This document shows positions 25,917 to 62,057 of a stretch of 64,000 nucleotides of DNA, in pieces. A program made the position numbers and the translations under genes. Source of the DNA: Verrucomicrobiota bacterium (GTDB taxonomy: Bacteria; Verrucomicrobiota; Verrucomicrobiia; Verrucomicrobiales; Akkermansiaceae); the NCBI GenBank assembly GCA_004293445.1, contig RDYP01000001.1:334754-398753 (forward strand). Direction: 5' to 3'. The notes beneath the pieces were generated by a model. It had not been told where the DNA came from. It saw only the letters and a list, made by a program, of their open reading frames with translations, and ran no database searches. Every line of letters starts with the position of its first letter. Position 1 is the first letter of the stretch.

Positions 25917-25945
25917 GTAGCCTGAAATGGGGAAATGCTTCCCAC

Positions 25946-30766: not shown

Positions 30767-30769
30767 TGC

Positions 30770-30785
30770 ACATTTTAACGGGTAG
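30770..30785 (+). promoter_or_regulatory. regulatory element copy 2 (TTTTAACGGGTAG)
   Basis: ACATTTTAACGGGTAG, 52 bp upstream of the giant beta-helix gene. The 16 bases are identical to copy 1. Downstream bases CAAGCAAC differ from the GGCA seen in copies 3-5. Confidence 0.7.
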
Positions 30786-33800: not shown

Positions 33801-36800
33801 GCCCACCAGTCTAACAGCATCCGCCGTTTCCGCCGACTCCATCCAGCTGACCTGGACCGACAACGCCTCGGACGAGACCGGCTTCATCATCGAGCGCTCG
33901 CTGACATCCGGCAGCGGATTCAGCCAGATCACCACGCTGGGCGCGAACGCCGTTTCCTACACGGATACCGGCCTCGTCGCGGGAACGGCCTATTTTTATC
34001 GGATCAGCGCCAGCAATGCCATCGGCCGCTCCGCCTATTCGAATGAGGCCACGGCGGAAACAACTGTCGGCGATTCGGGCACGTGGACGAGCGCGGTGAG
34101 TGGAGATTGGAGCGTCTCCGGTAAGTGGCTGAACGGCATCGTAGCCACTGGCACGGGGCAAACTGCGACCATTGCCCCGGCCACAGGAGTCACGGTGAAT
34201 CTGAATACGGCGCGCACCATCGGCGGCTTGAGTTTCACCGGCGCGAATCACGTCATCTCGGGTTCGAATTCCCTCTTGCTCGATGTTCTCTCCGGCGCAC
34301 CCGGCGTGGATGTCGCATCCGGTCTGACCGCCACGCTCGGAGTTCCATTGATCGGCAACGATGGTTTGGCGAAAATCGGCGCGGGCAATCTGGTGATCTC
34401 CACCTCCCCCGGATACAGCGGTCTCACCAGCGTCAGCGGCGGTCGCCTGACCTTCTCCGGCAACGTGGGAACGCCTCCACCGGCGACGCCGACCGTCACC
34501 TACAGCCTCGCGGGCGGGAACGAGAACTGGCCCGCCGACAAGCGCGCGGCGATCGTCGCGGCGATGGACACGGCTGTCGCGTTCTACAACCGCTACGGCA
34601 GTTTCAATCGCTCGCTGACGGCGAACTACGACGCCAATGTGGGAACCGCACAGGCGGGTTACGGCGGATGGATCGACTTCGGCGGCCAGATCGGCGCGCG
34701 CACCGCCCTCCATGAAATGGGACACACCATGGGCGTCGGAACGTACTGGGCCTGGGACTACAACCGCTCGGGCGGCGTTTGGACTGGCGCGAACGGCGTG
34801 GCAATGATCCGGAAGCTCGACGGACCCTCCGCCAACATAGGTTGCGACGCAGCGCACTTCTGGCCCTATGGTTTGAACTACGACGATGAAAACAACCCGC
34901 TGGCCTTCATGCGACACGTCCAGACCGTTTCGGCGATGCGGATCGACATGGGCATCGCCTCCAGTTCCGAGCTCCACGGCTACGATGGTGCCTTCGATAT
35001 CGCCACCGGCGCTGAGCTGGAGTTCAGCGGAACCGCGGTGCAACTCAACCATGCCATCAGTGGCGGCGGCATGCTACGCCATTCCGGAAACGGCACCCTC
35101 GTGCTCGCTGCGACAAACAGCTACACCGGCGGCACTGTCGCCGGTGGGGGCAGGCTGGTCGTCTTCTCGAACGGCGGCAACAGCGCGATCCGAGGAGCAC
35201 TGACCATCCAACCCGGCTCGACGGTCGAATGCACTGGCGACGGCACCGGCTTCGGCTGGCAGGATCAGATGAGCTCGATCTCGATCCAAGGCGGCACTCT
35301 TACCAGTTCCGGCATCTGCCACATCTGGAACCTCCCCGGCGGGATCACGATGACTGGCGGGACGCTGCAAAGCAACAATGGGACCAGCGACCCCAACGGC
35401 CCGCAACTCGAATGGAACCGCTGCTCCGTCGCCACACTTGCCAGCGGCAACACAGCGACCATCGGCGGTCGCATCCGCATCCGCGGGGATGCCGATTACG
35501 CTGCAGTGAGCTTCAACGTGGAAGAGGGTGCAGCGGCGACCGACCTGCTCGTCAGCGCGGCGCTCACCGAAGCTACTTCCGGCCGCGGCATCACCAAATC
35601 CGGCGCCGGGAAAATGGCGGTCAGCGGTTCTAACAACTACAGCGGCGTCACCACGGTGAACGGCGGCACGCTCGTCGCCGACACCACCGGCACCCTCGGA
35701 ACCGGAAATCTATCGGTCAACACCGGCGCAACCTGCGAAATCCGCAATCCCTCGGGCGCCCTTGCCGATACCGCGGCCGTCTCACTGAACGGCAGCGGAA
35801 AACTCACCCTCGCCAGCGGCGTGGCCGAAACGGTGAGACAACTGTTCATCAACGGCGTCCGGCAGCCGTCTGGTACCTACACCAGCGCGTCGTCCTTCAT
35901 CACTGGTTCCGGCAGCCTGATCGTGACCGATGTTCCTCTCGCATGGATCAGCCTGACGGATGGCAACTGGAGCAGCATCGGCAACTGGCAGAACTCCACG
36001 GTGGCCGACGGCGCTGACAACATCGCCACCTTCGCACAAGCCACCGGCGTGACCGTTACCCTGGACAGCAACCGCACTATCGGCGGACTGAGCTTCGCCA
36101 ATTCCAACTACACGCTCACCGGCAACGCGCTGATTCTCGCCACCACCCTCGGCAGCTCCAATCTGCAGGTGAGCGGAGCGGGCATTACGGCCACCATCGG
36201 GTCCAGCATCGCCGGTGGCAGTGCGCTGACCAAGACCGGCAATGGCACCTTGAAGCTCACCAACATCAACTCACACAGCGGCGGCACCTTGGTCAACGAA
36301 GGCACGCTGGAACTCGCCGGATCCTCTGGCGGCAACAGCTTGGTCAACGGCGTCGTCACGGTGAATCCGGGAGCCACCCTCGCCCTCACCGGTGGCGACG
36401 GCACCGGCTTCGGATGGAACAATCCCATCTCCCAACTCACAATCAACGGCGGCACGGCCAATGCATCTGGCAGCTCCCACCTCGGCTTCGGAGCTTACAT
36501 GAATGTGGCACTGAACGATGGCGGCACCATCGCCGGCAATTGGCAGTGGAATGGCGACGGGCTTCTAGGCTTCACCACATCGGGAGACAGCACCAACACC
36601 ATCAACGGCCTGCTGAACCTGCGATCGGACGCCGGAGCCAACCACACCTTCAATGTCGCCAATGGTGCCGCCTCGGTCGATCTCCAGATCAACGCGAACC
36701 TGAGCGACCAGTATCCGGAGGTTGGGTGGCTTGCCGCCTCCCATTTCATCAAAACCGGAGCTGGCACCGCGGTTCTCGCCGGTTCCAACAGCCACGACGG

Positions 36801-37806: not shown

Positions 37807-37813
37807 GCCCCGC

Positions 37814-37829
37814 ATGTTTTAACGGGTAG
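37814..37829 (+). promoter_or_regulatory. regulatory element copy 3 (TTTTAACGGGTAG)
   Basis: ATGTTTTAACGGGTAG, starting 8 bp after the stop of the giant gene and 64 bp before the next start. This short gap has no visible terminator, so the element probably marks a new transcription start for the downstream four-gene run. Confidence 0.7.
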
Positions 37830-37893: not shown

Positions 37894-40800
37894 ATGAAGA
37901 AAGCCACCCCCGCCCCACCCGCACTCTTTCTGCGATCCGCCGGCTTCTTCGCCCTGTTTATCCTTTCATCCCACGCTGCAAGCTATCACGTCGACGCGAC
38001 ATCAGGGAGCGACCTCGCAGATGGGCTCACTCCCGCCACCGCATGGCAATCGCTGGCAAAGGCGAATTCCGTGATTTACCAGCCCGGCGACCGCCTTCTG
38101 TTGAAATCAGGAGCGACCTGGACCGGACGCCTGAGACCCCAAGGATCGGGCACCGCAGCGGCACGCATTGTCCTCGACCGCTACGACGATGGTCCGAAGC
38201 CCTCGATCCATGGTGGCGGGATCGCTGGTGGCGCGGTCACCTTGGAGAACGTGGAATATTGGACGGTCCGCAATCTCGAGGTCACCAACAACGGCAGCTC
38301 GGAGCCGAAGAAGATGGGCATCAATGTCCGCAACGACTGTGTCGGCACCCTGTCGGGCATCGAGGTGCGTGATTGTGACATCCATGACGTCACTGGGGTC
38401 ATGAACAACTACATCGACGGCAAGGAAAGCGGCGGGATCGTCTTCCAAGTCACGGTGTCCAACCTCGCCGTTCCTTCCAAATGGGAGAACATCACCATCG
38501 AAGGAAACACGGTTCGCAATGTCCTTCGCGAAGGCATCCTCATGCAGTCGCTGTGGATCAACAAACCACAGGACCCCAATTCCAACTGGACCGGATGCGG
38601 GCCCTATCTGCCCTCCGAAAACATTCGCATCGCATCCAACATACTCGAGAACATCGGCGGCGACGGCATCATTCCCTGGTGCGTGAAAAACGGCCTCGTC
38701 GAACACAATCTTGTCCGCCGCGCCAACAACAACTCTCTCGGCCAGGGACATGCGGGACTATGGCCGTATTTTTGTGAGGACGTGGTCATGCAGTTCAACG
38801 AAGTCTGCGAAACGAAGACCGCCTACGACGGCATGGCTCTCGATTTCGACAACAGCGACCAACGCTGCATCTACCAATACAATTACAGCCACGACAACGA
38901 GGGCGGCTTCCTCAACATGTGCTGCGATGGCAACGGCAATGGAAACGTCGCGCGTTACAACATCAGCCAAAATGACGGCTGCATTCCCGGCGGACGGGTA
39001 TTCCTCGTCCACGGTCACGGCAACCACGGCTATCAGGTCTACAACAACACGATTTTCGTCAGCAGGAACAACCCACCGATGTTCGAGCAAGGAGCCTCGA
39101 GCACCGGCAGCGACATTACTTTCAAAAACAACATCTTCATCAACAGCGGCAGCGGATCGTTCTTCGCTCCGGGCGGTTGTTTCTTCGACAACAACCTCTA
39201 TCACGGCAACGGCCACATCGCCGCGGATCCTCGCAAGATCCTTGCGGACCCGATGCTCGTCTTTCCGGGGAGCGGAGGAACCGGCCTGAACTCGTTGAAC
39301 GGCTACAAGCTCCTCGCTGGTTCACCCGCGCTGGGCAGCGGACAGGTCATCGCAAGCAACGGCGGTTTGGATTATTGGGGAACCACGGTCTCCTCTTCAC
39401 TGGCTCCGAACATCGGAGCCTACAACGGCAGCGCAGCTCCACCTATCACCCCCTCCTCCGGCATCTGGGCTCGGGATGCCGATGGCTTCTGGACCGATGG
39501 CGGAAACTGGCAGGACAACACCATCGCCATCGGTTCGGAAATGACGGCCACCATCGCGCAGACGAACGCAGTGACCGTGCAACAGCCTGTCGATGATTTT
39601 CCGCTCGGTGGATTCGTCTTCTCCGGAGCGAACCATATCATCTCAGGTGGATCATTTCTCCTCAACGCATCGTCCTCCAGACCATTTGTAGAGGTCGCTA
39701 GCGGCAACCCAACCATCCATTCCACCCTTCGTGGCATGGCAGGTTTCCGAAAGACCGGAAACGGTACACTCACCCTCACCGGCATCAGCAACTATTCCGG
39801 CGGCACAATCGTCGATGAAGGCACGCTGGTTCTGCAATCAAACACTTCCGACCAATCCACGGTTCGCGGAAGCCTCGCGGTAAATCCTGGCACGACGGTC
39901 GCCATCTCCGGCATCGACTACGCGGGCCTCGGGCGAACCGGCGGGGCGAACGTCACCGCCTTGAACGTTATCGGCGGGACCGTGCAAAACACGATTCAGA
40001 GCTTCCTCACCGGAGCCACCGTGAATCTCACAGCGGGCACGATCAACGGCGGAGCTTTTCATTTCATCAGTAGCAACCTGAACAGCAAGGCAAGCGCCAG
40101 CACTTCGACGGTCACCAGCAATCTGATCATCCGCAAGGACTACGGCTCCGGTGACCCAGACATCGGCGTGGAGGATGGAAACGCATCCACCGATCTTCAT
40201 GTCAGCGGAATCATCACCGAGGTCTTATCATCGGGCCTCAGCAAATCCGGCGCGGGAAAATTCCTCCTCACTGGAACCAACAGCTACACCGGAACTACGA
40301 ACATCAATGCGGGGACCTTGAGCATACTCAGCACGGGGAAAATCTACACCGGCTCCGGATGGGCTCCGCGGACCGTGAACGTAAACCCGTCAGCCGTCTT
40401 GGAGATCGACCACTGGAACGGCGATGGCAGCCTCGGACAATCCGACTTCCGCGCCGCAGGGCTCGTCCTCAATGGCGGGACGCTTCGTTACATCGGAGCG
40501 GAAACCACCGCTCCCTCGGTCATTGACGGCAATACGGGCCGTGCTTTCAGTCTTGGTACTAACGGCGGTACTTTGGAAAGCGCGGCTCCTGCGGGCTACG
40601 TATTCGCCATTAGCCAATACCATGGCGATCCCGCAACCTATGCCCTGCCGGCGTTCAGTAGCACATTGACCCTCGCTGGCTCCGGGAATGGATTCATCGG
40701 GAAAATACTCTCCGGCTCAGGAGGTGTCACCAAATCCGGCAACGGCACATGGTCCCTCGTACGATCCAACAGCTACACGGGGCCCACGACCGTGAATGGC

Positions 40801-41394
40801 GGCACGCTCAGGCTCGGCAATGGATCCTCCAACACCAACCTCGCCGACAGCGCCGCGGTCATCGTCGCCAGTGGGGCAATGCTCGAGCTGCACTACTCCG
40901 GCACCGACACCGTAGCCTCCCTCAGTTTCGCAGGCATCGCCAGGCCTCCGGGAGTCTATTCCGCAGCAAACAGCCCCTTCATCACCGGCTCCGGCACGCT
41001 CACTGTTCTCTCCGGGCCGATCACCGACTTCGCCGGATGGGCAGCATTCCACTCCCTTTCTGGCGGACAAAACGATGACGACGACCACGATGGTCTCAGC
41101 AACCTCGCCGAATACGCCTTCGGCCTCGATCCCAAAAGCGGTGCCTCGGTCCAAGCCGTCACCACACTACCCGACCCCACCACCGGCAGCCTCACTTACA
41201 CCCGAAGGAGGGCATCCCTCAGCGGACTGAGCTTCCTGCTCTCGACGTCCACCGATCTCGCGGTCTGGACCGAAGATCCCGCAGCCCAAGAGGACATCAT
41301 CCACCAAAGCGGCGACTCCGAATTGATCCGAATCACGCCGAGCACCGCATCGCCCGAAAGAAGCAAAAGATTCTTCCGTATCAACGCCCGCTAA
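37894..41394 (+). CDS. secreted beta-helix/autotransporter-repeat protein (1166 aa)
   Basis: A signal peptide (about residues 10-29, ending SSHAAS) precedes a right-handed beta-helix (about 30-510: YHVDATSGSDLADG, IEVRDCDIHDVTG, ITIEGNTVRNV, YNNTIFVSRNN). Its start parallels the giant protein upstream (SYHVDATSGSD and ATAWQSLAKAN against DYHVDPAGNDS and AAAWQSLGKVN). Autotransporter-associated repeats follow, including a module also found in the 57690-62057 gene (SGIDYAGLGRTGG, ASTSTVTSNLIIRKDYGS). The C-terminus has the shared acidic DDDDHDGLSNLAEYAFGLDP and LLSTSTDL region. The beta-helix could be a polysaccharide lyase or a GH141-like hydrolase; without structural matching I do not assign activity. 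It heads a run of same-strand genes spaced 17-50 bp. Confidence 0.8.
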   Translation: MKKATPAPPALFLRSAGFFALFILSSHAASYHVDATSGSDLADGLTPATAWQSLAKANSVIYQPGDRLLLKSGATWTGRLRPQGSGTAAARIVLDRYDDGPKPSIHGGGIAGGAVTLENVEYWTVRNLEVTNNGSSEPKKMGINVRNDCVGTLSGIEVRDCDIHDVTGVMNNYIDGKESGGIVFQVTVSNLAVPSKWENITIEGNTVRNVLREGILMQSLWINKPQDPNSNWTGCGPYLPSENIRIASNILENIGGDGIIPWCVKNGLVEHNLVRRANNNSLGQGHAGLWPYFCEDVVMQFNEVCETKTAYDGMALDFDNSDQRCIYQYNYSHDNEGGFLNMCCDGNGNGNVARYNISQNDGCIPGGRVFLVHGHGNHGYQVYNNTIFVSRNNPPMFEQGASSTGSDITFKNNIFINSGSGSFFAPGGCFFDNNLYHGNGHIAADPRKILADPMLVFPGSGGTGLNSLNGYKLLAGSPALGSGQVIASNGGLDYWGTTVSSSLAPNIGAYNGSAAPPITPSSGIWARDADGFWTDGGNWQDNTIAIGSEMTATIAQTNAVTVQQPVDDFPLGGFVFSGANHIISGGSFLLNASSSRPFVEVASGNPTIHSTLRGMAGFRKTGNGTLTLTGISNYSGGTIVDEGTLVLQSNTSDQSTVRGSLAVNPGTTVAISGIDYAGLGRTGGANVTALNVIGGTVQNTIQSFLTGATVNLTAGTINGGAFHFISSNLNSKASASTSTVTSNLIIRKDYGSGDPDIGVEDGNASTDLHVSGIITEVLSSGLSKSGAGKFLLTGTNSYTGTTNINAGTLSILSTGKIYTGSGWAPRTVNVNPSAVLEIDHWNGDGSLGQSDFRAAGLVLNGGTLRYIGAETTAPSVIDGNTGRAFSLGTNGGTLESAAPAGYVFAISQYHGDPATYALPAFSSTLTLAGSGNGFIGKILSGSGGVTKSGNGTWSLVRSNSYTGPTTVNGGTLRLGNGSSNTNLADSAAVIVASGAMLELHYSGTDTVASLSFAGIARPPGVYSAANSPFITGSGTLTVLSGPITDFAGWAAFHSLSGGQNDDDDHDGLSNLAEYAFGLDPKSGASVQAVTTLPDPTTGSLTYTRRRASLSGLSFLLSTSTDLAVWTEDPAAQEDIIHQSGDSELIRITPSTASPERSKRFFRINAR

Positions 41395-50070: not shown

Positions 50071-50630
50071 GATAGGACTGGACCGCTGGGCCGGCCGACT
50101 CCCACCCCAGAGGGCGAATCGCAAAAGCACTCGCCAAAGACCCGCCTCCGCCACCGCCACCGCCGGTAAAGTGGGACCGCCTAGCAGTCGGTCCCTACCA
50201 TTCTTAAAAAGGTAGGGCTGGACCGCCGGGCCGGCCGACTCTCACCCCCGAGGGCGAATCGCAAAAGCACTCGCCAAGGAACCGCCTCCGCCGCCACAGG
50301 TAAAGTGGGACCACCTGGCAGTCGGTCCCTACCATTCCTAAAAAGGTAGGGCTGGACCGCCGGGCCGGCCGACTCTCACCCCGGAGGACGAATCGCAAAA
50401 GCACTCGCCGAGGAACCGCCTCCGCCGCCGGTAAAGTGGGACCGCCTGGCAGTCAGTCCCTACCATTCCAAAAAAAGGTAGGGCTGGACCGCCGGGCCGG
50501 CCCACTCTCACCCCCGAGGGCGAATCGCAAAAGCACTCGCCGAGGAACCGCCCCTTCCGACGCAGGTAAAGCGGGCCCGCCTAGCAGTCAGTCCCTACCA
50601 TTCCAAAAAAGGTAGGACTGGTCGGCAGCT
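50071..50630. repeat. tandem array of four 132-140 bp units plus a partial fifth
   Basis: Units start at 50071, 50211, 50345 and 50477, with a partial one at 50611. Each begins GGTAGGGCTGGACCGCC (unit 1 slightly diverged) and ends GTCGGTCCCTACC or similar, then an A-rich linker. Each junction can fold as CCCTACC-(11-12 nt with an A run)-GGTAGGG. Inside each unit, GGCGA and TCGCC can pair around AATCGCAAAAGCAC. There is no open reading frame worth calling. The array fills the gap between converging genes (50027 and 50644), so bidirectional termination or a REP-like element is plausible. Unit 1 is the most diverged, which suggests expansion from one side. Confidence 0.85.
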
Positions 50631-50643
50631 CCCAGCGACTTGC

Positions 50644-52065
50644 TCATCCATCCACGGCAACCGGTTCGCCTTCGACGCTGAGTTCAATCACGCGGAAGGG
50701 AGCATGAGCACCTCCTTCGATAGGACCAATTTGCCATTCCCCCGGCCCGCACTGGACGGCCACTTTGATCTTCGGGGAATCAAGCAGGCAGGCACCCAGC
50801 AAACGATTCTTCAGCGCCGGAATCAGCAGAGGTGCTGACGCATTCGACGCACGAACGATCAGATAGAGCTTTCCCTTCCGGCTGGTGACATAGCCCCAAG
50901 CAGGTGCCTCCTTGAACGGACTCTGCGAGACACCCTCAAAAGCAGCGCGGTTCGGATTCACCCACGCACCGATCTTCTGCAGGTAATCGCTGGCCATCGG
51001 ATGAAATTTGCCCGTCGCATCCGGGCCGACATTCAACAGGTAGTTCCCACCCAACGACGCAATGCGCGCCAAGGTTTCGATGTAGTGCTCCGGGGTTTTG
51101 ACCAGGTCCGGAGTGTAATTCCGTGGGTTGTATCCCCAGAAAGCTCCCATGTTCCAACAATACTCCCAGCGACCACCCGGCGGAGCATGAGGAATCTCGT
51201 TCTCGTAGGTATTGAAGTCCGAACGATCCAGACCCAGTCGATTGTTGATGACCACGTTCGGAAGCAACGAACGAATGATTTTCTCCGACTCTTGGGCATC
51301 GGCATCCGTCCACTTGCCCATCATGTGCCAAGTTCCGTCGAACCAGAAGATATCGGGCCGATACCATTCCGCGAGCTCCTTGATCTGTTTCTTGGCCAAC
51401 GCCGCAATCTGAGCATCGGTCGCGTAGGGCTTGGGTCCGAGACTGCGATAATCAAAGCCCCCATCGATCGCCTTCTGGTCCGCATCATCAAAGCCCTTCG
51501 GCGAGCCTCGGAACTCCAGAGGAGAATAGTAGATACCGAAAAGCAGCCCCTCTTTTTGGCAGGCTTTCTTCAAAGCAGCGAGCGGATCAGGGCCCTTGTA
51601 GGCACCACTGGCGAAGAGATGATAGTTGCTCGCCTTCGTCGGATAAATCGCGAAGCCGTCGTGATGCCGCGCGGTGATGACGATGTAACGCATCCCCGCC
51701 TCCTTGGCGCTGCGAACCCAGGCGTCCGCATCGAAGTTGCTCGGATTCCAAGCCGCCGCGGTCTTTGCATATTCTTCATAAGGGATCCGTGCGTTCTCCT
51801 GAATCCACTCGGCACTCCACAGGTCCTGCCCCTGGTAAGTGCCACCATACACCGAATAAACACCCCAGTGGAGGAAGAGTCCGAACTTGGCCTTGTTCCA
51901 GCGGTCGAGCGCTGCGACGCGACCCGGCGACTGCGATTCTTCCGAGCGGGTCTTCGCATTGTCGGGAATCGGTGCCGCGACGGCCTCGGCGGAAATCGCT
52001 TGGCCTTGGACGAGGCAAGCGTGCAGGGCAATGAGAAATCGAAACCGGAGAGAATGATGCCGCAT
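50644..52065 (-). CDS. GH29 alpha-L-fucosidase (473 aa)
   Basis: Canonical secreted retaining fucosidase. A signal peptide (MRHHSLRFRFLIALHACLV, cleaved near AISAEA) precedes the GH29 barrel: WNKAKFGLFLHWGVYSVYGG, YIVITARHHDGFAIYPTKAS, GIYYSPLEF, IFWFDGTWHMMG with the nucleophile Asp 243, GRWEYCWNMGAFWGY and ASLGGNYLLNVGPDATGKF. A short beta-sandwich ends the protein. I chose ATG 52065 because it begins the signal peptide; an in-frame upstream start at 52140 would add 25 residues. Regulatory copy 4 lies upstream. This is the only glycosidase of the locus on the minus strand. Confidence 0.93.
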   Translation of the reverse strand: MRHHSLRFRFLIALHACLVQGQAISAEAVAAPIPDNAKTRSEESQSPGRVAALDRWNKAKFGLFLHWGVYSVYGGTYQGQDLWSAEWIQENARIPYEEYAKTAAAWNPSNFDADAWVRSAKEAGMRYIVITARHHDGFAIYPTKASNYHLFASGAYKGPDPLAALKKACQKEGLLFGIYYSPLEFRGSPKGFDDADQKAIDGGFDYRSLGPKPYATDAQIAALAKKQIKELAEWYRPDIFWFDGTWHMMGKWTDADAQESEKIIRSLLPNVVINNRLGLDRSDFNTYENEIPHAPPGGRWEYCWNMGAFWGYNPRNYTPDLVKTPEHYIETLARIASLGGNYLLNVGPDATGKFHPMASDYLQKIGAWVNPNRAAFEGVSQSPFKEAPAWGYVTSRKGKLYLIVRASNASAPLLIPALKNRLLGACLLDSPKIKVAVQCGPGEWQIGPIEGGAHAPFRVIELSVEGEPVAVDG

Positions 52066-52195
52066 GGCGATTGAATGAGTGGTTGGATGAGTCGAACATG
52101 GGAGCGGCGTGCGGAAACCCAAAACCGCACACCGCCCCAAAGCCCGCGGGTTGGCCGGAACGCCTGCAGCATGCTCTTTTTCAGCAGCAACTGCC

Positions 52196-52211
52196 TACCC
52201 GTTAAAATAAG
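52196..52211 (-). promoter_or_regulatory. regulatory element copy 4 (TTTTAACGGGTAG)
   Basis: Read on the minus strand as TTATTTTAACGGGTAG, followed by GCAGT. It is 131 bp upstream of the preferred GH29 start (56 bp from the alternative start at 52140) and 31 bp beyond the response-regulator stop. Copies 4 and 5 are identical over ATTTTAACGGGTAGGCAGT. A direct repeat GTTCCTGC flanks it upstream. Confidence 0.7.
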
Positions 52212-52241
52212 CAGGAACGCTCCCGCATTGCAGGAACCACA

Positions 52242-52907
52242 TCAGCCCTTCCGTAACTTGGCGACCGCTTCGGATCGTGAGTGCACTTGGAGTTTCCCGT
52301 AAATGTTCCGGATGTGGAAGTTCACGGTGTAAACGCTTAGCTCGAGGCGATCGGCAATCTGCTTGTAAGGAAATCCCTCCAGCACCAGATCCAGCACCGC
52401 TTGCTCACGATCGGTCAGGCTCACCTCCGCCGCCTGGGCAGGTATGGGAGCCACGGTGGGATGGCTGAAAGTCTGCACCACCATGCGCGCAATCCTCGCC
52501 GACATCGGAGATCCACCAGCCGCGACTTCGCGAATCGCAGCAACGAGTTCCCGCCCACGGACCGGCTTGTGAAGATAACCGCAGGCGCCCGATTTCAAGG
52601 AATTGAAGATCGCTTCGGTGTTGTCGAACACCGTCAACATGACCACCAACACGCCGGGAATCCGATCGACCAAATGCCTGACACATTCCACGCCACTCAT
52701 GCCAGGCAGATTGATGTCCATGAGCACGACCTGAGGTTGCAGCAAGGGCAGCTCATCGATCGCCTGCTCGGCATTCGCGCACGATGCCACACAGATGATC
52801 CCGGGAACTCCCGTAAGAGTCTTTTCCAAGGACTCCCTCAAGCCGCCCTGATCCTCGACCATGGCGACTCGGATGGGATGGGCGTATGGGGCGGCGGAGC
52901 TGCTCAT
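52242..52907 (-). CDS. NarL/FixJ-type response regulator (221 aa)
   Basis: Receiver domain at about residues 12-130, with acidic pocket VEDQ, phospho-acceptor VVLMDINLPGMSG (Asp 64), TVFDN and the conserved Lys in YLHKPVRG. A LuxR-type helix-turn-helix follows at about 160-219 (LTDREQAVLDLVLEGFPYKQIADRLELSVYTVNFHIRN-type segment). It lies 27 bp after the kinase gene on the same strand, so they form a two-component pair. Proposed (inference) to bind the TTTTAACGGGTAG elements around it. Regulators of this family usually bind as dimers to short inverted or direct repeats. Confidence 0.95.
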   Translation of the reverse strand: MSSSAAPYAHPIRVAMVEDQGGLRESLEKTLTGVPGIICVASCANAEQAIDELPLLQPQVVLMDINLPGMSGVECVRHLVDRIPGVLVVMLTVFDNTEAIFNSLKSGACGYLHKPVRGRELVAAIREVAAGGSPMSARIARMVVQTFSHPTVAPIPAQAAEVSLTDREQAVLDLVLEGFPYKQIADRLELSVYTVNFHIRNIYGKLQVHSRSEAVAKLRKG

Positions 52908-52934: not shown

Positions 52935-55859
52935 TCAAAGGACACTTGAATTGCGGACAGGAACCGCGAGACGAACGAGAGTCCCACGACCGGAATCGGA
53001 AGCCAAGACATCGCAGCGCCCGCCAACCTCGGCGGCGCGGTTTCTCATATTCTGCAGGCCATTCCCCTGCCGCAGTCCAGCGGTGGGAGGAAGACCGCGA
53101 CCGTCATCGGCGATCTCGAGCAGGATGTGTCCGTCTTCCAGACCGATTCGCAAGGTGACCAAGGAAGCTGAGGCATGTCCCACCACGTTGTGAAGCGCCT
53201 CTTTCACGATCATCAAAAGATGGTGCCGAAGCCGGGCCGACAGTCGCAGTTCAGGCATGGATTCCGTGCTCGCAAAATGACAGCGCACCCCCGCCATCGC
53301 GAGATAGTCCTCGGCATAGCCATGCACGTATCGCGCAAATTCCTCAAAAGTGTTGTTCGCAGGATCCACCGCCCAGACCACCGTATCGAGCTCCTTCGCC
53401 GTCGCATGGGACACGTGGAAGATACGATCCAGCTGCGCCCGCATTTCCTCGGGATCGTCCATGGCGCGCTCGACCTGCTCGGTGAGTAGGCCGATCTGGG
53501 CGAGATTTGCCCCGATGTTGTCATGAAGATCCTGCGCAATGCGCGAGCGCTCCTGCTGCAGCGCATGCTCGCGCTCGAGTCGAATCCCCGCGAGATAACG
53601 CCAACTACCGAAAAGGAGGCTTGCGATGACCACCACGATCAGCAGCCAAAACCACGGCTGCTTCCAAACCGGGAGTTGAATGCTCATTTCCACCCTCTGA
53701 GAAACACCGCGCTGCCGCTCCTCCACGGCGATCCTCCAGACATTCTCACCTGCATACGAGATCTTGCCAATCTTGCAGCCTGTCGCGGCTTTCAGGACTG
53801 GCGTCAAACGACTGTAAACAAAAAGATCCCCATCCCGTGCACCGGCATCGCTGAGCTCGATCTCCATCCCGCCCTGTAGGCTGGTAACCCGCTGAATTTC
53901 CGCGGCACCACAGTAAATGTGAAGGTTGGATCCAATCAACACCGGACGGTCCGGCGTTCGATCGAGATCGGTAAAGCGCAGATGCTGAGAGGCCGAAGGT
54001 GCCAGCGAAGGCGTCGTCCAGGATCCCTTGGCAACGCCGAGGAATCGATCGTCCCAAAACGACCACACCGCGTAACGTCGATCAGGCAAAAGCCCGGCGT
54101 CTTGGAAATCCAGCGTAACCTTGCGCTCCGTCCCTCCAGGATTCCACAGCAGCGCCACCGACATGCGGCCCCATTCACGATCGACATGCCCCACCAAGCG
54201 CGGGAACTCATGACTCGTGCACAGATCCATCACCTCGGTGCGTTCCCGCGCCGGAGGGGTCATGGTTTCAACGTTCCGGAGTAGAGGCTTGAACTCCTCC
54301 AAGTACCAAGGATCCGAAGTGATGGCATTGCCGCAGGACAAGCCCACCATGCTGATCCAAGTACGAACGATCGGCCATCCACCCGCGATGGAACTGATAT
54401 TTTCCAGATCGGTCCCGAGAAAATAACCATCGCTGTCCACCACACCCCAGCGTCCTTGGATCGATAGACAACGCAGAACATCATCGAACACCGGGCGCAG
54501 CGTGCCGCGAGTGGACTCGACTCCTATCCGATGGGCATCCACGAGTCCCACCGACGCACGATTCGGCTTGAGATCGTTGTTGAGTAGATAAGCTCCATCG
54601 CCCACCGCTTTACGGATCGAAGTGAAGCCATCCCGAACCACCTCGAACGAAGTCTGCCTTTCGTTGCCCAAGGCATACTGAGTCAGCTTCTGAGTATTGA
54701 GTTTGAAATACGAATACCCCTTGCCCGACAGGACCCGCGCTTGATTGACAAGCTTGTCCCACGGAACGGCAAATCCGTTCTTGTCGACCGATTCCAAAAG
54801 CAGCCCCGGCCGCGCTCCGGCCGACTCGATCTGCTTCGCGTAAAAATCCAATCCCTCCGGAAAGCGCTCGTTCGACTCTTTCACGCCGCTCGGATCCTCG
54901 TAGCCACCGTCGATCTGAATGACCGCAGGCCGCAGCCGATCCGGATAAGTTCGGGTGGAATCGACCACCGCGAGCACATCCTTCCCCGATACCTGCCCTC
55001 CTAGAAATTGCCAACTATTCCAACCCGAGACGGCACCATGCTGCGTGCGGGCATCATGCGAGACACCCACCCAATGGCTCCAGTGGCCCAAGGCGATTCG
55101 CGGCATCTCCGCAAACAGAGCGACCTGCTGCCCCCAGCGCGTCTCGCCCGGGTCGACCCTCACCCGACTCATGTCCGCGGCATACGTAAAAGCGACACGC
55201 CCCTCTGGGATCAAGGTGAGGGAGGCGTTCACGTAGGCGATGGGCGACCCCACCGGCCCCCACAGAAACCCAAGGCCGTTCTTGCGATACAAGCCACCGT
55301 TCTCGAAGACCGATACGGTTTGACTAGCGTCTGACAATCGCACCAGCGGCGGCGTTGTTTGAACACTATCATTGAGCCGGGTGATCCACCAATCGCCAGG
55401 TCCATCCGCGACCGAAAACTCCATGCGCATGGGCGTGACGGAAACCAACTGAAGCGGCTGCTTGCTGCGGTTGGTGATGCCCGATTGCATCAGCACCACC
55501 GCAGTCCCCGGGATCGTTCCCATACGATGCACCAGACTCACCTCTCGCTCGGGAAAGTGAATGGTCCTGGAGGTGATGGATGCCACGCCGAGCGGCGTCA
55601 TCTCCGTCTCCGCTGCCGCGGTCGTTGGGAGCAGATCCCCCTCGCTGGATACGAGATCCAGCTCCTGCCCCTCCACTACGACTTTCGCAGAATATCCACC
55701 TCGCCAGTCGGCGAATCCATCAGCCTCCAAACCGATGGATCTTCCACCGGCCTCGAAGCCCGCCTGCAATCCCCATGCGACCGTAGGGCCGGGAAAAAGC
55801 CCGGCCAGCAAGCCGAGCCAGGCCACCCATCCGCGGAATGCCCTCACCGTGACCATCAT
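52935..55859 (-). CDS. sensor histidine kinase with a GH36-like alpha-galactosidase ectodomain (974 aa)
   Basis: A signal segment (about residues 4-29) precedes a GH36-type beta-supersandwich (about 30-265) and a TIM barrel starting GWNSWQFLGG (279-288), with IQIDGGYED (Asp 317), PGLLLESV, YFKLNTQKL and VVDSDGYFLG (Asp 475, 477). A C-terminal sandwich runs to about 725. One membrane helix (about 735-752) leads to a HisKA_3 dimerisation domain (QDLHDNIGANLAQI, His 779) and a HATPase_c domain (KEALHNVVGHA, DDGRGLP, GNGLQNMRNRA). GH36 enzymes use an Asp nucleophile after this Lys; here Asn 388 (AAT) stands there, and the usual Asp-Asp of the IDDGY motif is Asp-Gly. The ectodomain is therefore probably a non-catalytic sugar sensor. 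The start at 55859 begins the signal; an in-frame start at 55979 adds 40 residues. Confidence 0.88.
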   Translation of the reverse strand: MMVTVRAFRGWVAWLGLLAGLFPGPTVAWGLQAGFEAGGRSIGLEADGFADWRGGYSAKVVVEGQELDLVSSEGDLLPTTAAAETEMTPLGVASITSRTIHFPEREVSLVHRMGTIPGTAVVLMQSGITNRSKQPLQLVSVTPMRMEFSVADGPGDWWITRLNDSVQTTPPLVRLSDASQTVSVFENGGLYRKNGLGFLWGPVGSPIAYVNASLTLIPEGRVAFTYAADMSRVRVDPGETRWGQQVALFAEMPRIALGHWSHWVGVSHDARTQHGAVSGWNSWQFLGGQVSGKDVLAVVDSTRTYPDRLRPAVIQIDGGYEDPSGVKESNERFPEGLDFYAKQIESAGARPGLLLESVDKNGFAVPWDKLVNQARVLSGKGYSYFKLNTQKLTQYALGNERQTSFEVVRDGFTSIRKAVGDGAYLLNNDLKPNRASVGLVDAHRIGVESTRGTLRPVFDDVLRCLSIQGRWGVVDSDGYFLGTDLENISSIAGGWPIVRTWISMVGLSCGNAITSDPWYLEEFKPLLRNVETMTPPARERTEVMDLCTSHEFPRLVGHVDREWGRMSVALLWNPGGTERKVTLDFQDAGLLPDRRYAVWSFWDDRFLGVAKGSWTTPSLAPSASQHLRFTDLDRTPDRPVLIGSNLHIYCGAAEIQRVTSLQGGMEIELSDAGARDGDLFVYSRLTPVLKAATGCKIGKISYAGENVWRIAVEERQRGVSQRVEMSIQLPVWKQPWFWLLIVVVIASLLFGSWRYLAGIRLEREHALQQERSRIAQDLHDNIGANLAQIGLLTEQVERAMDDPEEMRAQLDRIFHVSHATAKELDTVVWAVDPANNTFEEFARYVHGYAEDYLAMAGVRCHFASTESMPELRLSARLRHHLLMIVKEALHNVVGHASASLVTLRIGLEDGHILLEIADDGRGLPPTAGLRQGNGLQNMRNRAAEVGGRCDVLASDSGRGTLVRLAVPVRNSSVL

Positions 55860-56003
55860 GCCCGAGCCTTGGCAGATGCCGTCCGACACGTCGAGTTGGA
55901 TTTGGAGCCCGGCATCGCAAGATCTGTGACCGCGCGGTTTGGACGCAAGAAGGCCGGCCTCCCATTGAGGCAGGCCCAATGCAGCCCACCTCCGTACACC
56001 CCA

Positions 56004-57479
56004 TCAAGCACGGCGCCGACGCAGGAGACAAAGCAAACCCAGACCACCCATAAGGGCCGATGCGGGCTCGGGAACCACAGTAAGGGTACCGGTGCTATTG
56101 TCGAAGGTTGCGGTGTAGCCGCTCGCGAGGCCGGTCGGAACCACGGAAGAGAAGCTCCCACTGTAGGAATCGAAATCGAAAATCTTCAACGAACCCATCG
56201 TATTGAAACCGGACTGGAAGAGCAGATTCAAGGTTCCGTTGAACTGAACGCTCTGGGTCCCACTCGCGGCCGCGACAGCTAGGTCAAAATTCCCGGAGTT
56301 GAACGAGTTGACCTCGAAGTCGGAAACACTACCAGCGTCGAGGACAAGATTACCAGTCAGAGTCATGGTGCCCGGGCTGTTACCGGGAGCAAAGACCCCG
56401 TTATTCTGAATAGTAACAGTACCAACAGTGCCGGCACCACCGAGCGTAGCTCCCGATTGCACGATAGTAGCACTTGTCGCGATGCTTCCATTGACCACGA
56501 GCTTACCGCCGGAAACCGTGGTAGCACCGGTGTAGCTGCTGTTGGCACCCGAGAGTTCCATGGTTCCAGCGCCGGATTTGCTGAGGCCCAGAGGGCCATA
56601 TGTTTCTGTGATGTTCCCGCTGATGAGCAAATCCGTAGCTGCCGCGCCATTGGCGACGTTGGCCGACAAGCTGGTGTAGCCACCGTCACCGCGAAGATTG
56701 AGTTGCCCGGCGATCGTTGCGGTATCCGCACTTGGGTTGGTATTCAGGTTGGTATGGTTCCACTGGAAACCGCTGCCCTGCAGCGTGCCGCCAGTCATGT
56801 TGACACCACCCGAGATACCCCAAATGTGACTGCCACCGGTGTCGGTCACCATGCCGCCGTTGATATTGACAGAACTGGGCCTCCAACCGCCTTGATAGCC
56901 AAGACCGCTGCCATCACTCGTGATGGAAAGAGTCGTGCCGGAATTGACAGTGACCGCGCCGTCGAAGAAACCGTAGCCGCCATTACCACCAGACAATTTG
57001 AGCGTGCCGCCATTGAGATCTAGTCCTCCCCGGAAGTAGCTGTGAACAGTGACTTCCATCGTACCCGCTCCCTCCTTGATGATTCTGGCAGCGGAATAGG
57101 TGTAGTCAGGATTGCCAGGCAGAGCCCGAAGACTGGTGTTGACGAGGAGGTCCGTCGCGGAGCTGCCCGTAACGTCCGCCACGGTGAAGGTGGTAGGGTC
57201 GGCGATATTGAACCACGACGAACCAGTGATGGTCGATGGAGCAGAGCCACTGACCGCGACTCCGGTGATAACCGATGCGCCATAGGCATTGTAATTGCCC
57301 GAACCGCTGACCGTTCCGCCTTGGAGCAGGAGATTGGCACCGGTGTAACTGCCATTGCTCAAATTCAGGGTTTCCCCGACACCTACAGTATAATCAACGG
57401 CATCGGCGGAACCGGCGATGACCAGGGTTGCGGCTAGGAGGGCACGTATTTGCAAGGAGGAACGAGAGCTTGATTTCAT
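56004..57479 (-). CDS. PEP-CTERM protein with autotransporter-associated repeats (491 aa)
   Basis: Signal peptide (about residues 8-27, ending AGSADA), then beta-strand repeats of the autotransporter-associated type (IIKEGAGTMEVT, LSKSGAGTMELSGANSSYTGATTVSGGKLVVNG). The C-terminal domain contains FNGTLNLLFQSGF and FDFDSYSGSFSS. A PEP-CTERM tail follows: VPEPASALMG, a short hydrophobic helix, then LLRRRRA. In exosortase systems this tail directs sorting to the cell surface; no exosortase gene is in the window. Regulatory copy 5 lies 76 bp upstream, and the kinase and regulator genes follow on the same strand. A surface component of the sensing system is possible. Confidence 0.9.
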   Translation of the reverse strand: MKSSSRSSLQIRALLAATLVIAGSADAVDYTVGVGETLNLSNGSYTGANLLLQGGTVSGSGNYNAYGASVITGVAVSGSAPSTITGSSWFNIADPTTFTVADVTGSSATDLLVNTSLRALPGNPDYTYSAARIIKEGAGTMEVTVHSYFRGGLDLNGGTLKLSGGNGGYGFFDGAVTVNSGTTLSITSDGSGLGYQGGWRPSSVNINGGMVTDTGGSHIWGISGGVNMTGGTLQGSGFQWNHTNLNTNPSADTATIAGQLNLRGDGGYTSLSANVANGAAATDLLISGNITETYGPLGLSKSGAGTMELSGANSSYTGATTVSGGKLVVNGSIATSATIVQSGATLGGAGTVGTVTIQNNGVFAPGNSPGTMTLTGNLVLDAGSVSDFEVNSFNSGNFDLAVAAASGTQSVQFNGTLNLLFQSGFNTMGSLKIFDFDSYSGSFSSVVPTGLASGYTATFDNSTGTLTVVPEPASALMGGLGLLCLLRRRRA

Positions 57480-57550
57480 CGATTTTGATGGGGTTGGAAG
57501 GTGATGATGTAGCCGCTGGACTTATTTCACATTCCTCCCGATTAAGAACA

Positions 57551-57582
57551 CTGCCTACCCGTTAAAATGTCCGGGTAGGCAG
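57551..57582 (-). promoter_or_regulatory. regulatory element copy 5 within a perfect 10-bp inverted repeat
   Basis: The element core is at 57555-57570, read on the minus strand as ACATTTTAACGGGTAG. It sits in a perfect inverted repeat: CTGCCTACCC (57551-57560) and GGGTAGGCAG (57573-57582), with a 12-bp spacer. It is 76 bp from the PEP-CTERM start. Only this copy has both full arms. Confidence 0.72.
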
Positions 57583-57689
57583 CAGAAGAATGCCTGTGAC
57601 ATCAAGCATCTCGGGGCCCAATTCTTAAATCAGAAGGAAGGAAACGACCACACGATATGACTACTTTCCTCTCTCTGATTAACGGCATT

Positions 57690-60600
57690 TTACTGAGCGC
57701 GGACTTGAATGAAGAGCTTCGTGTTGCTCAGAAGCGCAGGACTGAGAGTTACCGGCACCGTTTCCACTTCACCATTGAGACTTGGGTTGCCTTGGACAGC
57801 ATTACCGTCCTCAGCCCACGTCCCGAGATCGGTGGAATACCAAACGCTGTAGCTCAAACCAGTAAGCGACTGCTGACGACGGGTGTAAGAGAAGGTCCCT
57901 GTGGTCGCGTCGAGCGCCACCGAGATCGCATTGACGGAGGCCCCACCCGTGGGATTCAGGCCAAATGCGTATTCCTCCTGATTGGTGAGACCGTCGTTAT
58001 CGTCATCATCGTTCTCGCCACCGATCACGCCGTTGGCAGTCTTCCAGTTGTCGAAGTCGGTAGCAGTGACGGTGTAGGTAAGATTTCCGTCCGCCTCGGT
58101 GAAGACCCACTTGGCATTGGTAACCGAAAGCTCCCAACTGCCGGGGGTAACTTCTGTGAAGCTATCAGGACCACTGGTGATCGCGGTAGGCGCGAGGACT
58201 GGTGCCGTGCCGGTCAGGGTGCTAAGTTGGAAAAGATTCCAAACATTGCCATCGGTCGTATCGGCAGCGCTGAGGTCGAGGTTGACCGCGCCAAGGAAGG
58301 AAAGCGAGGAACCCTCCGAGCCGGATACCGAGTTCGTTGCGCCATTCGTGGTCGGACGGAAGAGCAAGCCAGAAGTCACTTCAAGCGCACCCTCACCAAC
58401 CACCGTATTACCGGTGTAGGTATTGTTTCCGGAAAGGACCAGCTTGCCGGAACCCGACTTGATCAAGCCTGCAGCGAAGACGTTGCTGATGTTTCCACTG
58501 ATCAGCAGGTCCGTCGCAGCAGTACCATCTGCAACGCTGACGCCGAGGTCGGTGGAACCGTAATCTTTACGAATCAGCAAATTGCTCGAGATCGTCGAGG
58601 TGCTCGCGCTCTCGCTGCTATTAAAGGCACTGCTGATGACGTGGTAGGTGCCACCGCTCATGGAGCTACCCGTCAAATTGACCGTGGCACCACTCACCCA
58701 GCTCTGGACCGTATTTTCCACGGTGCCGTCGTTCACCTCAAGATAGCTGACACGCGATCCGACACGGCCAAGACCGGTGAAGTCCAAGCCCGCGAGCTTC
58801 AAGGTCGCGCCACTCGCTACCGTCAGACTTCCGCTCACTGCCGAGATATCGTAGCTGGACGAAGCAAGCTCAAGCGTGCCCGCGGTGACGGTGGTGCCGC
58901 CGGTGTAGGACTTAACACCGCTGAGGATCAAGCTACCTGAGCCCGTCTTCTCGAGCCCAGCATTACCCGCAAGATTCGCGGAGATCGTGGCGTTGATACC
59001 GTTGGCGACACTCACAAACGGAATCCCCGAGGACTCCAGCAACAGAGTATTGGAACCCGCTAGGGTGTAATCCGAGACATCGAACACAAGATTGCCGATG
59101 CTTCGGTTGCTGTCCAAGTTCACGATCGCACCCGTTGCGGCACCGAAGGTAGCGGTCGCATCCGTACCAACCGCGACAACGTCGGAGAGCCAATTCGCCG
59201 CATCGCTCCAATTGCCATCGGTGAGCGATGTCCAGGTGCCGCTCGCCTGGGTGACCACGAGCGAGCCTCCACCCGTGAAGAACTCACCGTAGGTGGGGTG
59301 GGTGGAATCATAGGTTCCAGCCGGGAGGGAACCACTGCCATCGATATCGATACTACCGACGATATCTGCACCGACGAAGTTCAGATCCATCTTCGCGTTG
59401 GTGCCAATGACGACAGGCGCCGCATCATCAAGGACCGGATTCGTAAGAGAAACAGTGCCTTCATTGACAACGGTTGATCCCGTGTAGCTGTTCGCACCGC
59501 CAAGCACCATCGTGCCCGCGCCGTTTTTGGTAATACCCATACCCGCATTGGCCTGGGTAATCGCCGCACTGACCAGCAAGTCGGCGGAGGCATCACCATC
59601 GGCCACATTGAAGACGATTCCAGTTGAACCACCATCGGCGCGCATACGGATGCGACCGCCGATGGTTGCAGTGCCCGCGCTGGCGTTCGTGGTGACAGGG
59701 GTATTAGCCCATTCCAATTGGGGTCCGCTTGCATCGCTGGTCCCGCTATTGCTTTGCAACGTGCCGCCAGTCATGTTCACCCCGCCGGAGAAATTCCAAA
59801 CGTGCATGGTTCCCGCACTGCTAACCGTACCCCCGTTGATATTAAGAACGGTCACCTTGGCACCCGGGTTGTATCCAAGGCCGGTACCGTCATCGTTCAC
59901 CAAGCTAACAGTGGTACCGTTATTCACGGTGAGAGCGCCTCGGACGCGGCAGTTTCCTCCATTGTTTCCATCCAGAATCAAGGTGCCTGCATCGACCGTT
60001 GTCCCACCGGTGTAGTAACTGAAATTGGTGAATCTGAGCGTTCCGTTACCGATTTTGGTCAGGCCCCAAGAACCGCCATCTTCATAGAAACCGGTGACCG
60101 CGAGCGTGTCGGCATCGACACCAACAGTGGTGTTGCTTCTTAGAGCGAAGCCTGGACCGTTTCCACTGTTCCCATAAGTCATGGTCAGGGCATTGTCGCC
60201 GCTGATGCTACGCAACGCGCCTAGGCCACCCACGCCCGAACCCCAGATGTGGAAGTGCTCGTTAAGGGAAATACCACCTTGCAATGCGAGGGTTGCGTCG
60301 TTCTGGATAAAGCTCATCGTGTTGCCATCCCAGCCGCCCGCACCAAGCGCATTGCTACTGGCTGCAACCAAGGTGCCCGCCTGAATATTGGTCTGACCGT
60401 CGAAGGAGTTGGAACCGGAAACAAGCATCTGGCCGGCACCGGTCTTGATCAGATTCCCACGCGGCACCCAGCCGACCTCCGGCCATTGATCGCTGAGGTT
60501 GGCGTTAACCAGAAGGTCAGTCGCCGCCGCGCCGTCAGCCACGTCGATACTATGGTTGCCACCGCCGTCTCCGCGCAGGTTCCATGATCCCGAAATGGTG

Positions 60601-62057
60601 TTGGTGCTGTCGCCGGAAGCACTGAAAGGAGTCCCTGTGCCGCCATTCCATTGACCGGCGCCCATCATCGTAGCACCGTTTTTCAGAACGACGGTCATGG
60701 CACTTCCGAAACCGAGGTGCGTGCCACTTGCGGCGTCAAAGGTACCGCCATCGACGGTGAGGCTTGTGGCCGGGCCATTCCAGCCGAAGCCCGAACCATC
60801 CCCACCGATGAACTTCAATGTGCCACCGGAGTTCACAGTGACCGCGCCGCGGAGCCAGCCGTAACCACTGTTCTGGCCGACCAATTCGAGCGTGCCGTTA
60901 TTGATCGTCGTGCCACCCGTGTAACTCTGCCAACCACGGAATTGCATGGTGCCGGCACCGGTTTTGGTGAGGGAACCGCCGCTTGCCCAGCCCGTGAAAT
61001 TGAGCGTCGAACCCGAACCTACCTCAAAAACGCCGCTGCTCAGCGTCACCTGATTCGCGCTGATGGTCGATGTGACGCCACCGGTGGCGGTGGTGGTGCC
61101 ATTGATTCCCCAACTGCCCCAGGTGGCATCCGATCCCGTGCTGGCGAGTTCGCCTCCAGCGAGGGTCAGGTTGCTGATGTTGGAGTGGGCATTGATGGTC
61201 AGCTTGCCACCGGTGTTGATGGTGGTGCCATCAATGGCTTGGTAGTAGTTGACGCTTCCAGCCTGATTGACCGCGACGGTCCCTCCGTTGTTGATGGCGA
61301 TCGTTCCAGCGCCAGAATTGCCCGCGGCCAATTCGCCGTTAATCGAAAGTGTATTGATTGTGGGCGAATAGGAATTCGATCCGACAAAGTTGTAGCTGCT
61401 TCCATTCCAAACCGACGAACCCGTGTCCGCCGTGATGATCCCACTCGCCGCAGAAATCGCTCCGGTCTGGACAGTGAGATAAGGATTAGTCGGTCCGGTG
61501 AAATGCAATTGGGAACCGGAGCCACCGATCACAGCAAACCCGTTGAAGCTACTCTGATTGGTAACGATGTCTTGAAAGGTTGATGCCCCGATTCCCCAAG
61601 AGACCGAAGCTCCGTTGCCGTAAGAACCGGTCGCATTCACAGCATTGGTGATCGGAGTGGCTCCCGGGATGGGCTGCCCCCCACCTGCTGTCCAAGAACC
61701 ATCAGCAGTCGCCACGAAAGACCCATTAACGCCACCGCCCCAAGTGGCATTACCATTCTGGAGCGTCACGGTAGCGGGAGCTACCAGAGTCAAACCCGAG
61801 AGCGTGGACAGATCGAAGTGGATGTATTGCCCATCGCCAGCGCTCCCACGCCAATACAAACGTCCCCAATCATTCGCGCTATTGAAAGTGCCGCTGCCTC
61901 CAACGTAGTCCGCCCAGTCCGTGGCATTGATGGTATGAGTAGTGACATCCGTAGCCTGATTCCCGTCGAAGGTCAGAATCTCGGCATTGACGGAAACGGT
62001 GCATGCAGCACCGATCACAGCGGTTACGCAAAGGAAGGGATTGAAGCGGAGTTTCAT
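57690..62057 (-). CDS. giant secreted autotransporter-repeat protein with STDL-type C-terminus (1455 aa)
   Basis: A signal peptide (about residues 8-25, ending SVNAEI) is followed by an N-terminal beta domain (about 26-200) and then about 1100 residues of autotransporter-associated strand repeats (LTKTGAGTMQF, INNGTLELVG, ITKNGAGTMVLGGANSYTGSTVV). Several modules recur in other proteins of this window. The last ~120 residues (NWKTANGVIGG, acidic DDDDNDGLTNQEEYAFGLNP, YSVWYSTDL) match the C-termini of the 30838, 37894 and 17568 genes, so no PEP-CTERM tail is present. No TTTTAACGGGTAG element lies upstream. Probably a fibrous surface or matrix protein; no enzymatic motif is visible. Confidence 0.82.
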   Translation of the reverse strand: MKLRFNPFLCVTAVIGAACTVSVNAEILTFDGNQATDVTTHTINATDWADYVGGSGTFNSANDWGRLYWRGSAGDGQYIHFDLSTLSGLTLVAPATVTLQNGNATWGGGVNGSFVATADGSWTAGGGQPIPGATPITNAVNATGSYGNGASVSWGIGASTFQDIVTNQSSFNGFAVIGGSGSQLHFTGPTNPYLTVQTGAISAASGIITADTGSSVWNGSSYNFVGSNSYSPTINTLSINGELAAGNSGAGTIAINNGGTVAVNQAGSVNYYQAIDGTTINTGGKLTINAHSNISNLTLAGGELASTGSDATWGSWGINGTTTATGGVTSTISANQVTLSSGVFEVGSGSTLNFTGWASGGSLTKTGAGTMQFRGWQSYTGGTTINNGTLELVGQNSGYGWLRGAVTVNSGGTLKFIGGDGSGFGWNGPATSLTVDGGTFDAASGTHLGFGSAMTVVLKNGATMMGAGQWNGGTGTPFSASGDSTNTISGSWNLRGDGGGNHSIDVADGAAATDLLVNANLSDQWPEVGWVPRGNLIKTGAGQMLVSGSNSFDGQTNIQAGTLVAASSNALGAGGWDGNTMSFIQNDATLALQGGISLNEHFHIWGSGVGGLGALRSISGDNALTMTYGNSGNGPGFALRSNTTVGVDADTLAVTGFYEDGGSWGLTKIGNGTLRFTNFSYYTGGTTVDAGTLILDGNNGGNCRVRGALTVNNGTTVSLVNDDGTGLGYNPGAKVTVLNINGGTVSSAGTMHVWNFSGGVNMTGGTLQSNSGTSDASGPQLEWANTPVTTNASAGTATIGGRIRMRADGGSTGIVFNVADGDASADLLVSAAITQANAGMGITKNGAGTMVLGGANSYTGSTVVNEGTVSLTNPVLDDAAPVVIGTNAKMDLNFVGADIVGSIDIDGSGSLPAGTYDSTHPTYGEFFTGGGSLVVTQASGTWTSLTDGNWSDAANWLSDVVAVGTDATATFGAATGAIVNLDSNRSIGNLVFDVSDYTLAGSNTLLLESSGIPFVSVANGINATISANLAGNAGLEKTGSGSLILSGVKSYTGGTTVTAGTLELASSSYDISAVSGSLTVASGATLKLAGLDFTGLGRVGSRVSYLEVNDGTVENTVQSWVSGATVNLTGSSMSGGTYHVISSAFNSSESASTSTISSNLLIRKDYGSTDLGVSVADGTAATDLLISGNISNVFAAGLIKSGSGKLVLSGNNTYTGNTVVGEGALEVTSGLLFRPTTNGATNSVSGSEGSSLSFLGAVNLDLSAADTTDGNVWNLFQLSTLTGTAPVLAPTAITSGPDSFTEVTPGSWELSVTNAKWVFTEADGNLTYTVTATDFDNWKTANGVIGGENDDDDNDGLTNQEEYAFGLNPTGGASVNAISVALDATTGTFSYTRRQQSLTGLSYSVWYSTDLGTWAEDGNAVQGNPSLNGEVETVPVTLSPALLSNTKLFIQVRAQ
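60781..61263. repeat. block nearly identical to 63518-64000
   Basis: Collinear with the right end of the window at an offset of 2737 bp, with about 20 mismatches by eye over 483 bp. It codes the same repeat region (around LTKTGAGTMQFRGWQSYTGG) of two adjacent paralogues. The partner block continues past the window edge, so the full extent is unknown. Confidence 0.85.

Follow-up and report, generated by a model that had tools for sequence, protein, structure and literature searches.

What is the purpose of a perfect inverted repeat that stands in front of a sensor operon in an Akkermansiaceae genome? The repeat lies within the 64,000-nucleotide stretch of DNA analysed here (the window), and a preliminary description took it as a stronger dimer site at the regulator's own operon, which would mark autoregulation. 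Its arms, CTGCCTACCCG and CGGGTAGGCAG, are 11 bp each, 100% complementary, and separated by a 10-nt gap; the repeat first described, with 10-bp arms and a 12-nt gap, is the same one with one pair undercounted. We counted nine perfect-repeat entries with arms of at least 10 and loops of 3 to 20 in the window, several of them registers of one locus, versus 0 to 4 in 12 first-order resamplings. With arms of at least 11 there were four entries, versus none in 11 of the 12 resamplings and two in one. Such a repeat is thus rare, yet its length alone does not make it unique.

Copies of a directional motif

The repeat encloses one of the copies of a core sequence, TTTTAACGGGTAG, that has six exact occurrences among the 49 contigs (3.35 Mb) of the genome; a search that tolerated one mismatch found these six exact copies and none further. 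All six are on one contig within 39 kb, five in the window (Table 1) and one about 870 nt past its end, and each points toward a start codon 50 to 132 nt downstream. The repeat belongs to copy 5, one of six single-locus operator copies fronting sugar-degrading and sensor genes.

Table 1. Features of the operator copies, the sensor operon and adjoining genes in the window
Feature	Positions	Strand	Remark
Operator copy 1	25941-25958	+	Upstream of SASA-esterase gene 26038-28245
Operator copy 2	30765-30782	+	Upstream of PATR autotransporter-like gene 30838-37806
Operator copy 3	37809-37826	+	Upstream of PATR-containing gene 37894-41394
Alpha-L-fucosidase gene	50644-52140 (likely ATG 52065)	-	Behind copy 4
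Operator copy 4	52198-52215	-	Upstream of alpha-L-fucosidase gene; without in-register -10
NarL/LuxR-type response regulator gene	52242-52907	-	Product is the probable motif binder
Sensor histidine kinase gene	52935-55979 (likely ATG 55859)	-	GH36-like extracytoplasmic domain, then HisKA_3/HATPase_c
PATR/PEP-CTERM protein gene (491 aa)	56004-57479	-	First gene after copy 5
Expected -10 (TAnnnT) position, copy 5	57530-57535	-	GGAATG instead
Perfect inverted repeat, copy 5	57551-57582		Arms 57551-57561 and 57572-57582
TAGGCA, -35-like	57552-57557	-	Overlaps copy 5 right arm; from the 18-site alignment
Operator copy 5, core CCCGGACATTTTAACGGG	57558-57575	-	Dyad CCCG-N10-CGGG, axis between 57567 and 57566
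PATR gene, tandem, upstream of copy 5	57690-62057	-	Stop 108 nt before copy 5 hairpin

Other genomes of the family also contain the core, and an ungapped alignment of 18 sites from four genomes yielded the directional motif C-N9-CCCGCACATTTTAACGGGTAGGCA-N16-TAnnnT. The core is invariant in this alignment by construction, because it was the search key. The flanks are not: all 18 sites have CC at positions -8/-7, 14 have A at position 15, and T, A and T stand at positions 32, 33 and 37 in 12, 13 and 14 sites, respectively. Lone core matches in eight other family genomes (L008, L010, L012-L017), without the CCCGCAC half, were kept out of the alignment.

In the commonest form of the site, the mirror-related CCCG and CGGG stand 10 bp apart. 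The left half is therefore present in every copy, and copy 5 adds only seven outer pairs, compared with 0 to 4 extra pairs beyond the conserved core at the 28 other tabulated places. The earlier observation that only copy 5 has a full outer arm holds among the six copies of this genome (11 of 11 arm pairs, fewer in the others). The accompanying statement that the other copies have "one full half-site" was incomplete, since CC occupies the mirror position in all 18 aligned sites. Copy 1 does carry the arrangement GGGTAG-7-CTACCC, as described; we rejected it as an alternative operator form, because none of the other aligned sites repeats it. As judged from the alignment, the conserved unit is a directional motif and not a symmetric arm.

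Promoter-like geometry

The motif includes what looks like a promoter, with TAGGCA resembling a -35 element and TAnnnT a -10 element. TAGGCA matches TTGACA at four of six positions and lies 16 nt before the conserved TAnnnT, which occurs at offset 32 in 20 of the 29 tabulated places and in at most two at any other offset from 18 to 49. Counting the TAnnnT hexamer as -12 to -7 puts the dyad axis near -43.5. The TAGGCA of the right arm is a better fit to a -35 element than to half of a protein-binding site. As a set, the sites have the layout of activator-dependent sigma70 promoters, in which the site abuts or overlaps the -35 and the -10 is at fixed spacing; copy 5 itself does not. Its in-register -10 is missing, as it also is in copies 2 and 4, so that the activity of copy 5 is uncertain, and GGAATG at that position speaks against copy 5 as the strongest promoter. 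The corresponding sensor-operon sites of two related genomes, G013 and G232, have -10 elements TATTCT and TAGCCT. An ECF-sigma promoter was considered and rejected: under the spacing rule for such promoters, the conserved TAnnnT, about 25 nt past AAC, is too far away.

The probable regulator

The sensor operon encodes, after the PATR/PEP-CTERM protein, a kinase with HisKA_3 and HATPase_c domains and a regulator with receiver and GerE domains (Pfam), the latter two genes being about 27 nt apart, which is the arrangement of a two-component system. Among solved structures, the regulator matches NarL best (1a04, E 1.5e-28); its NCBIfam NarL score is 122.6, under the cut-off of 250.

A profile of the 18 sites was then applied, under stricter filters, to the 260 family genomes. 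At E<1e-3 it matched 28 sites in six of the 260 genomes (8, 6, 6, 4, 2 and 2 sites), and the best match outside those six had an E-value of 0.005. Two of the six, G232 and G245, had contributed no sites to the profile and were matched all the same. One place in G245 (C403:2785) is tabulated among the 29 places; not being a profile match, it is excluded from the 28-site counts. In a protein search, the same six genomes, and no further genome, held the kinase at 66% identity or more (66-74% in the five others). Nine other family genomes have weaker kinases (43-56% identity) and showed no strong motif match, and nine paralog loci gave no profile match at E<=10. Six kinase-paralog loci (43-49% identity) contained no comparable repeated 10-mers, in a script that recovered the motif in the window. 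Because motif and kinase are linked in one locus, their co-occurrence is not independent evidence; the two may in part simply have been inherited together.

A search for the exact 19-base sequence CCNGCACATTTTAACGGGTA in contigs of 84,980 species, a set that may omit the window's own record, matched five genomes, four of which are these Verrucomicrobia MAGs. The fifth match (L140, Chitinophagaceae) overlaps a gene end on a contig with no such system, and we took it as chance.

The helix-turn-helix recognition stretch of the regulator, SVYTVNFHIRNIYGKLQVHSR, is identical in this regulator and in its five orthologs, down to 73% overall identity, and differs in all 10 other regulators aligned. 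The neighbouring regulator is the best candidate binder, given scattered copies of one geometry and a helix that matches. We consider it highly likely, from these comparisons, that the NarL-type regulator binds the motif, and copy 5 very probably serves as an operator for the adjacent kinase/regulator pair.

What the second arm adds

On the reading of the preliminary description, the full second arm would make copy 5 the strongest dimer site of the regulator and so mark autoregulation. The complete pairing and the position before the regulator's operon speak for it, but the orthologous sites do not bear it out: the sensor-operon site of G013 has neither a second arm nor a strong hairpin, and that of G232 reads CTGCC-ACCCG where copy 5 has CGGGTAGGCAG, one base short and thus out of register as a DNA dyad. 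Furthermore, a -35 element accounts for the outer TAGGCA, copy 5 lacks the in-register -10, and the CTA beside the core is also found at the non-sensor sites L093:11 and L094:8520. It is unlikely, on such evidence, that the second arm raises the affinity of the regulator, and equally unlikely that it makes copy 5 the strongest site; most likely the outer arm marks no higher affinity. Where an outer arm falls on a core-promoter element, the perfect symmetry of a single copy says little about affinity. A role as a hairpin, or an origin by template switching, is no worse an explanation of the arm. In the first of these, a nucleic-acid hairpin, separate from the operator function, would stabilise, process or end read-through RNA from the upstream gene and insulate the sensor operon. 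The 36-nt copy 5 site has a predicted RNA fold of -24.3 kcal/mol (-31.9 in its 71-nt context, z -5.6), and of the 28 sites backed by the profile just one other, the sensor-operon site of G232 (-22.0), falls below -14 kcal/mol; random left flanks reach -20 kcal/mol or lower in only 29-35 of 20,000 trials. The G232 arm still pairs as a 12-pair hairpin with a one-base bulge, which is compatible with a hairpin and not with a rigid DNA dyad, and a tandem gene ends just upstream in both genomes (about 9 nt away in G232). Strong hairpins thus occur at two of three sensor-operon sites versus none of 25 others (hypergeometric 0.0079), in a post hoc comparison made after copy 5 had been seen and with only three sensor sites, of which G013 has no strong hairpin. 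A T-rich terminator tail is lacking, however, and the hairpin would lie upstream of the expected promoter start and so be absent from the operon's own transcript. We hold this role to be possible but doubtful; the hairpins at copy 5 and in G232 suggest that the arm, if it matters at all, matters as a hairpin. An intrinsic terminator was rejected, as none was found in 57400-57800 (the scan used loops of 3-8 nt, and the copy 5 loop is 10) and the tail TGTTCTTAATC is only partly T-rich.

The perfect repeat may instead be a functionless by-product of replication template switching, in which the right arm was copied onto the left of an imperfect palindrome. All copies have the imperfect dyad that would be the substrate for such events, and the creation of perfect stems by template switching has been reported (PMC8794818). 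Against this, the orthologous site in G232 carries a hairpin of its own, shaped separately from that of copy 5, and we regard this origin, too, as a tentative possibility. It is far less probable that the TAGGCA copy in the second arm serves a divergent promoter: the arm does mirror the -35-like element, but no sigma70-type match exists on either strand of 57400-57800, and the only nearby plus-strand open reading frame starts at 57657, antisense to the upstream PATR gene, into which such a promoter would read.

Control of the sensor operon

Whatever the outer arm does, autoregulation itself is plausible, because the site before the regulator's operon is conserved in three of the four testable genomes. 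It is present in this genome (G000), G013 and G232, the last two with the same gene order behind it as here (PATR/PEP-CTERM, kinase, regulator); in G171, the roughly 17 kb examined upstream of the sensor operon contain no site. G245 and G096 were left out of this count, as their contigs start too near the kinase. The part of the preliminary description that proposed autoregulation is therefore plausible, while the stronger dimer site on which it was based is not supported. Every copy that can be assigned to a gene, copy 5 included, directly precedes that gene, and in most cases the product looks secreted by eye; the sensor genes may thus be passengers of a structural-gene promoter. The gap between the PEP-CTERM gene and the kinase contains no sigma70-like promoter or terminator-like match, and a promoter of a type other than sigma70 could lie in the roughly 145 nt ahead of the likely kinase ATG. 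Control of the operon by its own regulator is somewhat favoured.

The explanation that we prefer overall, with fair confidence, is a six-copy operator/promoter set at a single locus, of which copy 5 is the sensor-operon member. The motif, its conservation, its position and its co-occurrence with the kinase and regulator are direct observations, from which we infer binding, activation and autoregulation. Specifically, the sensor kinase would phosphorylate the adjacent NarL-type regulator, which would then bind the dyad CCCG-N10-CGGG centred near -43.5 and activate sigma70-type promoters with a poor -35 (TAGGCA). The targets would be CAZyme and PATR/PEP-CTERM genes and, via copy 5, the PEP-CTERM/kinase/regulator operon, giving moderate positive autoregulation. 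The outer arm of copy 5 would be dispensable for the operator, a later addition that forms a strong hairpin between two tandem genes.

A sensor kinase with a GH36-like domain

The extracytoplasmic part of the kinase matches GH36 alpha-galactosidases (profile E 5e-14). Its AlphaFold model (pLDDT 76.9, pTM 0.66) finds GH36 and related structures as best Foldseek matches, with E-values down to 1e-22. The domain shares fold and sequence profile with enzymes such as TmGalA of T. maritima and the F. plautii galactosaminidase, but differs from TmGalA in its catalytic residues. At the position of the Asp of YFKIDF, which we take to be the TmGalA nucleophile, the six orthologs have Asn, and only two of 20 family members have Asp. 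At the position aligned with TmGalA D387, the mutated residue in a PDB title and presumably the acid/base residue, all six have Glu. In other words, the orthologs have Asn and Glu in place of the two Asp residues of an active GH36 glycosidase, and the domain is probably a sugar-binding pseudo-enzyme. Such a sensor, a kinase joined to a glycosidase fold that has lost a catalytic residue, hints at a way in which these bacteria could read complex glycans. The kinase has paralogs at 43-52% identity, both here (C4, C21) and in other families of the phylum, and a second kinase/NarL-type pair (44-49% identity) lies inside the same G013 cluster (L029:93-1315).

Comparison with known systems

Close parallels include NarL-related activators. 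NarL activates E. coli ogt from -44.5, next to the -35 (PMC7419079), which compares with a dyad axis near -43.5 here. Unlike NarX/NarL, known from the ogt and yeaR promoters, the present system has a GH36-like sensor in place of a nitrate sensor. ComA of Bacillus subtilis shares with it a tetrahelical helix-turn-helix dimer, promoter-proximal activation and CGG-containing recognition elements (PMC4797271). The operators differ: NarL binds two inverted 7-base elements 2 bp apart (7-2-7), and ComA binds TTGCGG-N4-inverted TTGCGG plus a direct repeat, with another orientation and spacing (PMC4797271). CCCG-N10-CGGG does not follow the 7-2-7 form and is wider than either site, which counts against our preferred explanation.

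In polysaccharide loci of Bacteroidota, hybrid two-component systems or SusR act as local regulators that switch on their own CAZyme locus. Here, in contrast, kinase and regulator are separate proteins and the targets include PATR/PEP-CTERM proteins. RsgI of Clostridium thermocellum is likewise a membrane protein that senses carbohydrate and is linked to the transcription of polysaccharide-degradation genes, but is an anti-sigma factor rather than a histidine kinase.

In a literature search over titles and abstract openings, with subscription journals and preprints mostly outside its scope, we found no description of this operator or of a GH36-type sensor kinase, nor, within the same limits, of an operator for any Verrucomicrobiota polysaccharide locus. 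Here a sequence-defined operator, a promoter geometry, a probable regulator and a target list come together at one locus. A wider and more speculative proposal, to which we give rather little credence as a whole, is that a Verrucomicrobiota kinase family senses carbohydrate via a dead GH36 domain, and that in this lineage a private single-locus regulon uses a dedicated composite operator/promoter, which at the sensor operon would also form an RNA hairpin shielding the regulator from upstream read-through.

The surrounding locus

Among the neighbouring genes are those for two Alpha_L_fucos proteins, GH95, GH106, DUF5703 and a SASA-type esterase, which makes a glycan containing fucose and rhamnose a reasonable guess. 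The PATR gene upstream of copy 5 and the adjacent PATR autotransporter-like gene (62218 to beyond 64000, minus strand) share long stretches that are near-identical by eye, apparently the result of a recent tandem duplication. Positions 50072-50640, flanked by genes that end at 50027 and 50644, hold four GC-rich tandem copies of about 134 nt, each with inverted arms CCTACCATT...AAAGGTAGG. A 14-nt imperfect inverted repeat at 52101-52138 (fold -23.5 kcal/mol), between copy 4 and the likely fucosidase start, is a possible leader hairpin. Finally, a perfect 12-bp inverted repeat with a 3-nt loop at 16637-16663 is among the strongest small minus-strand hairpins.
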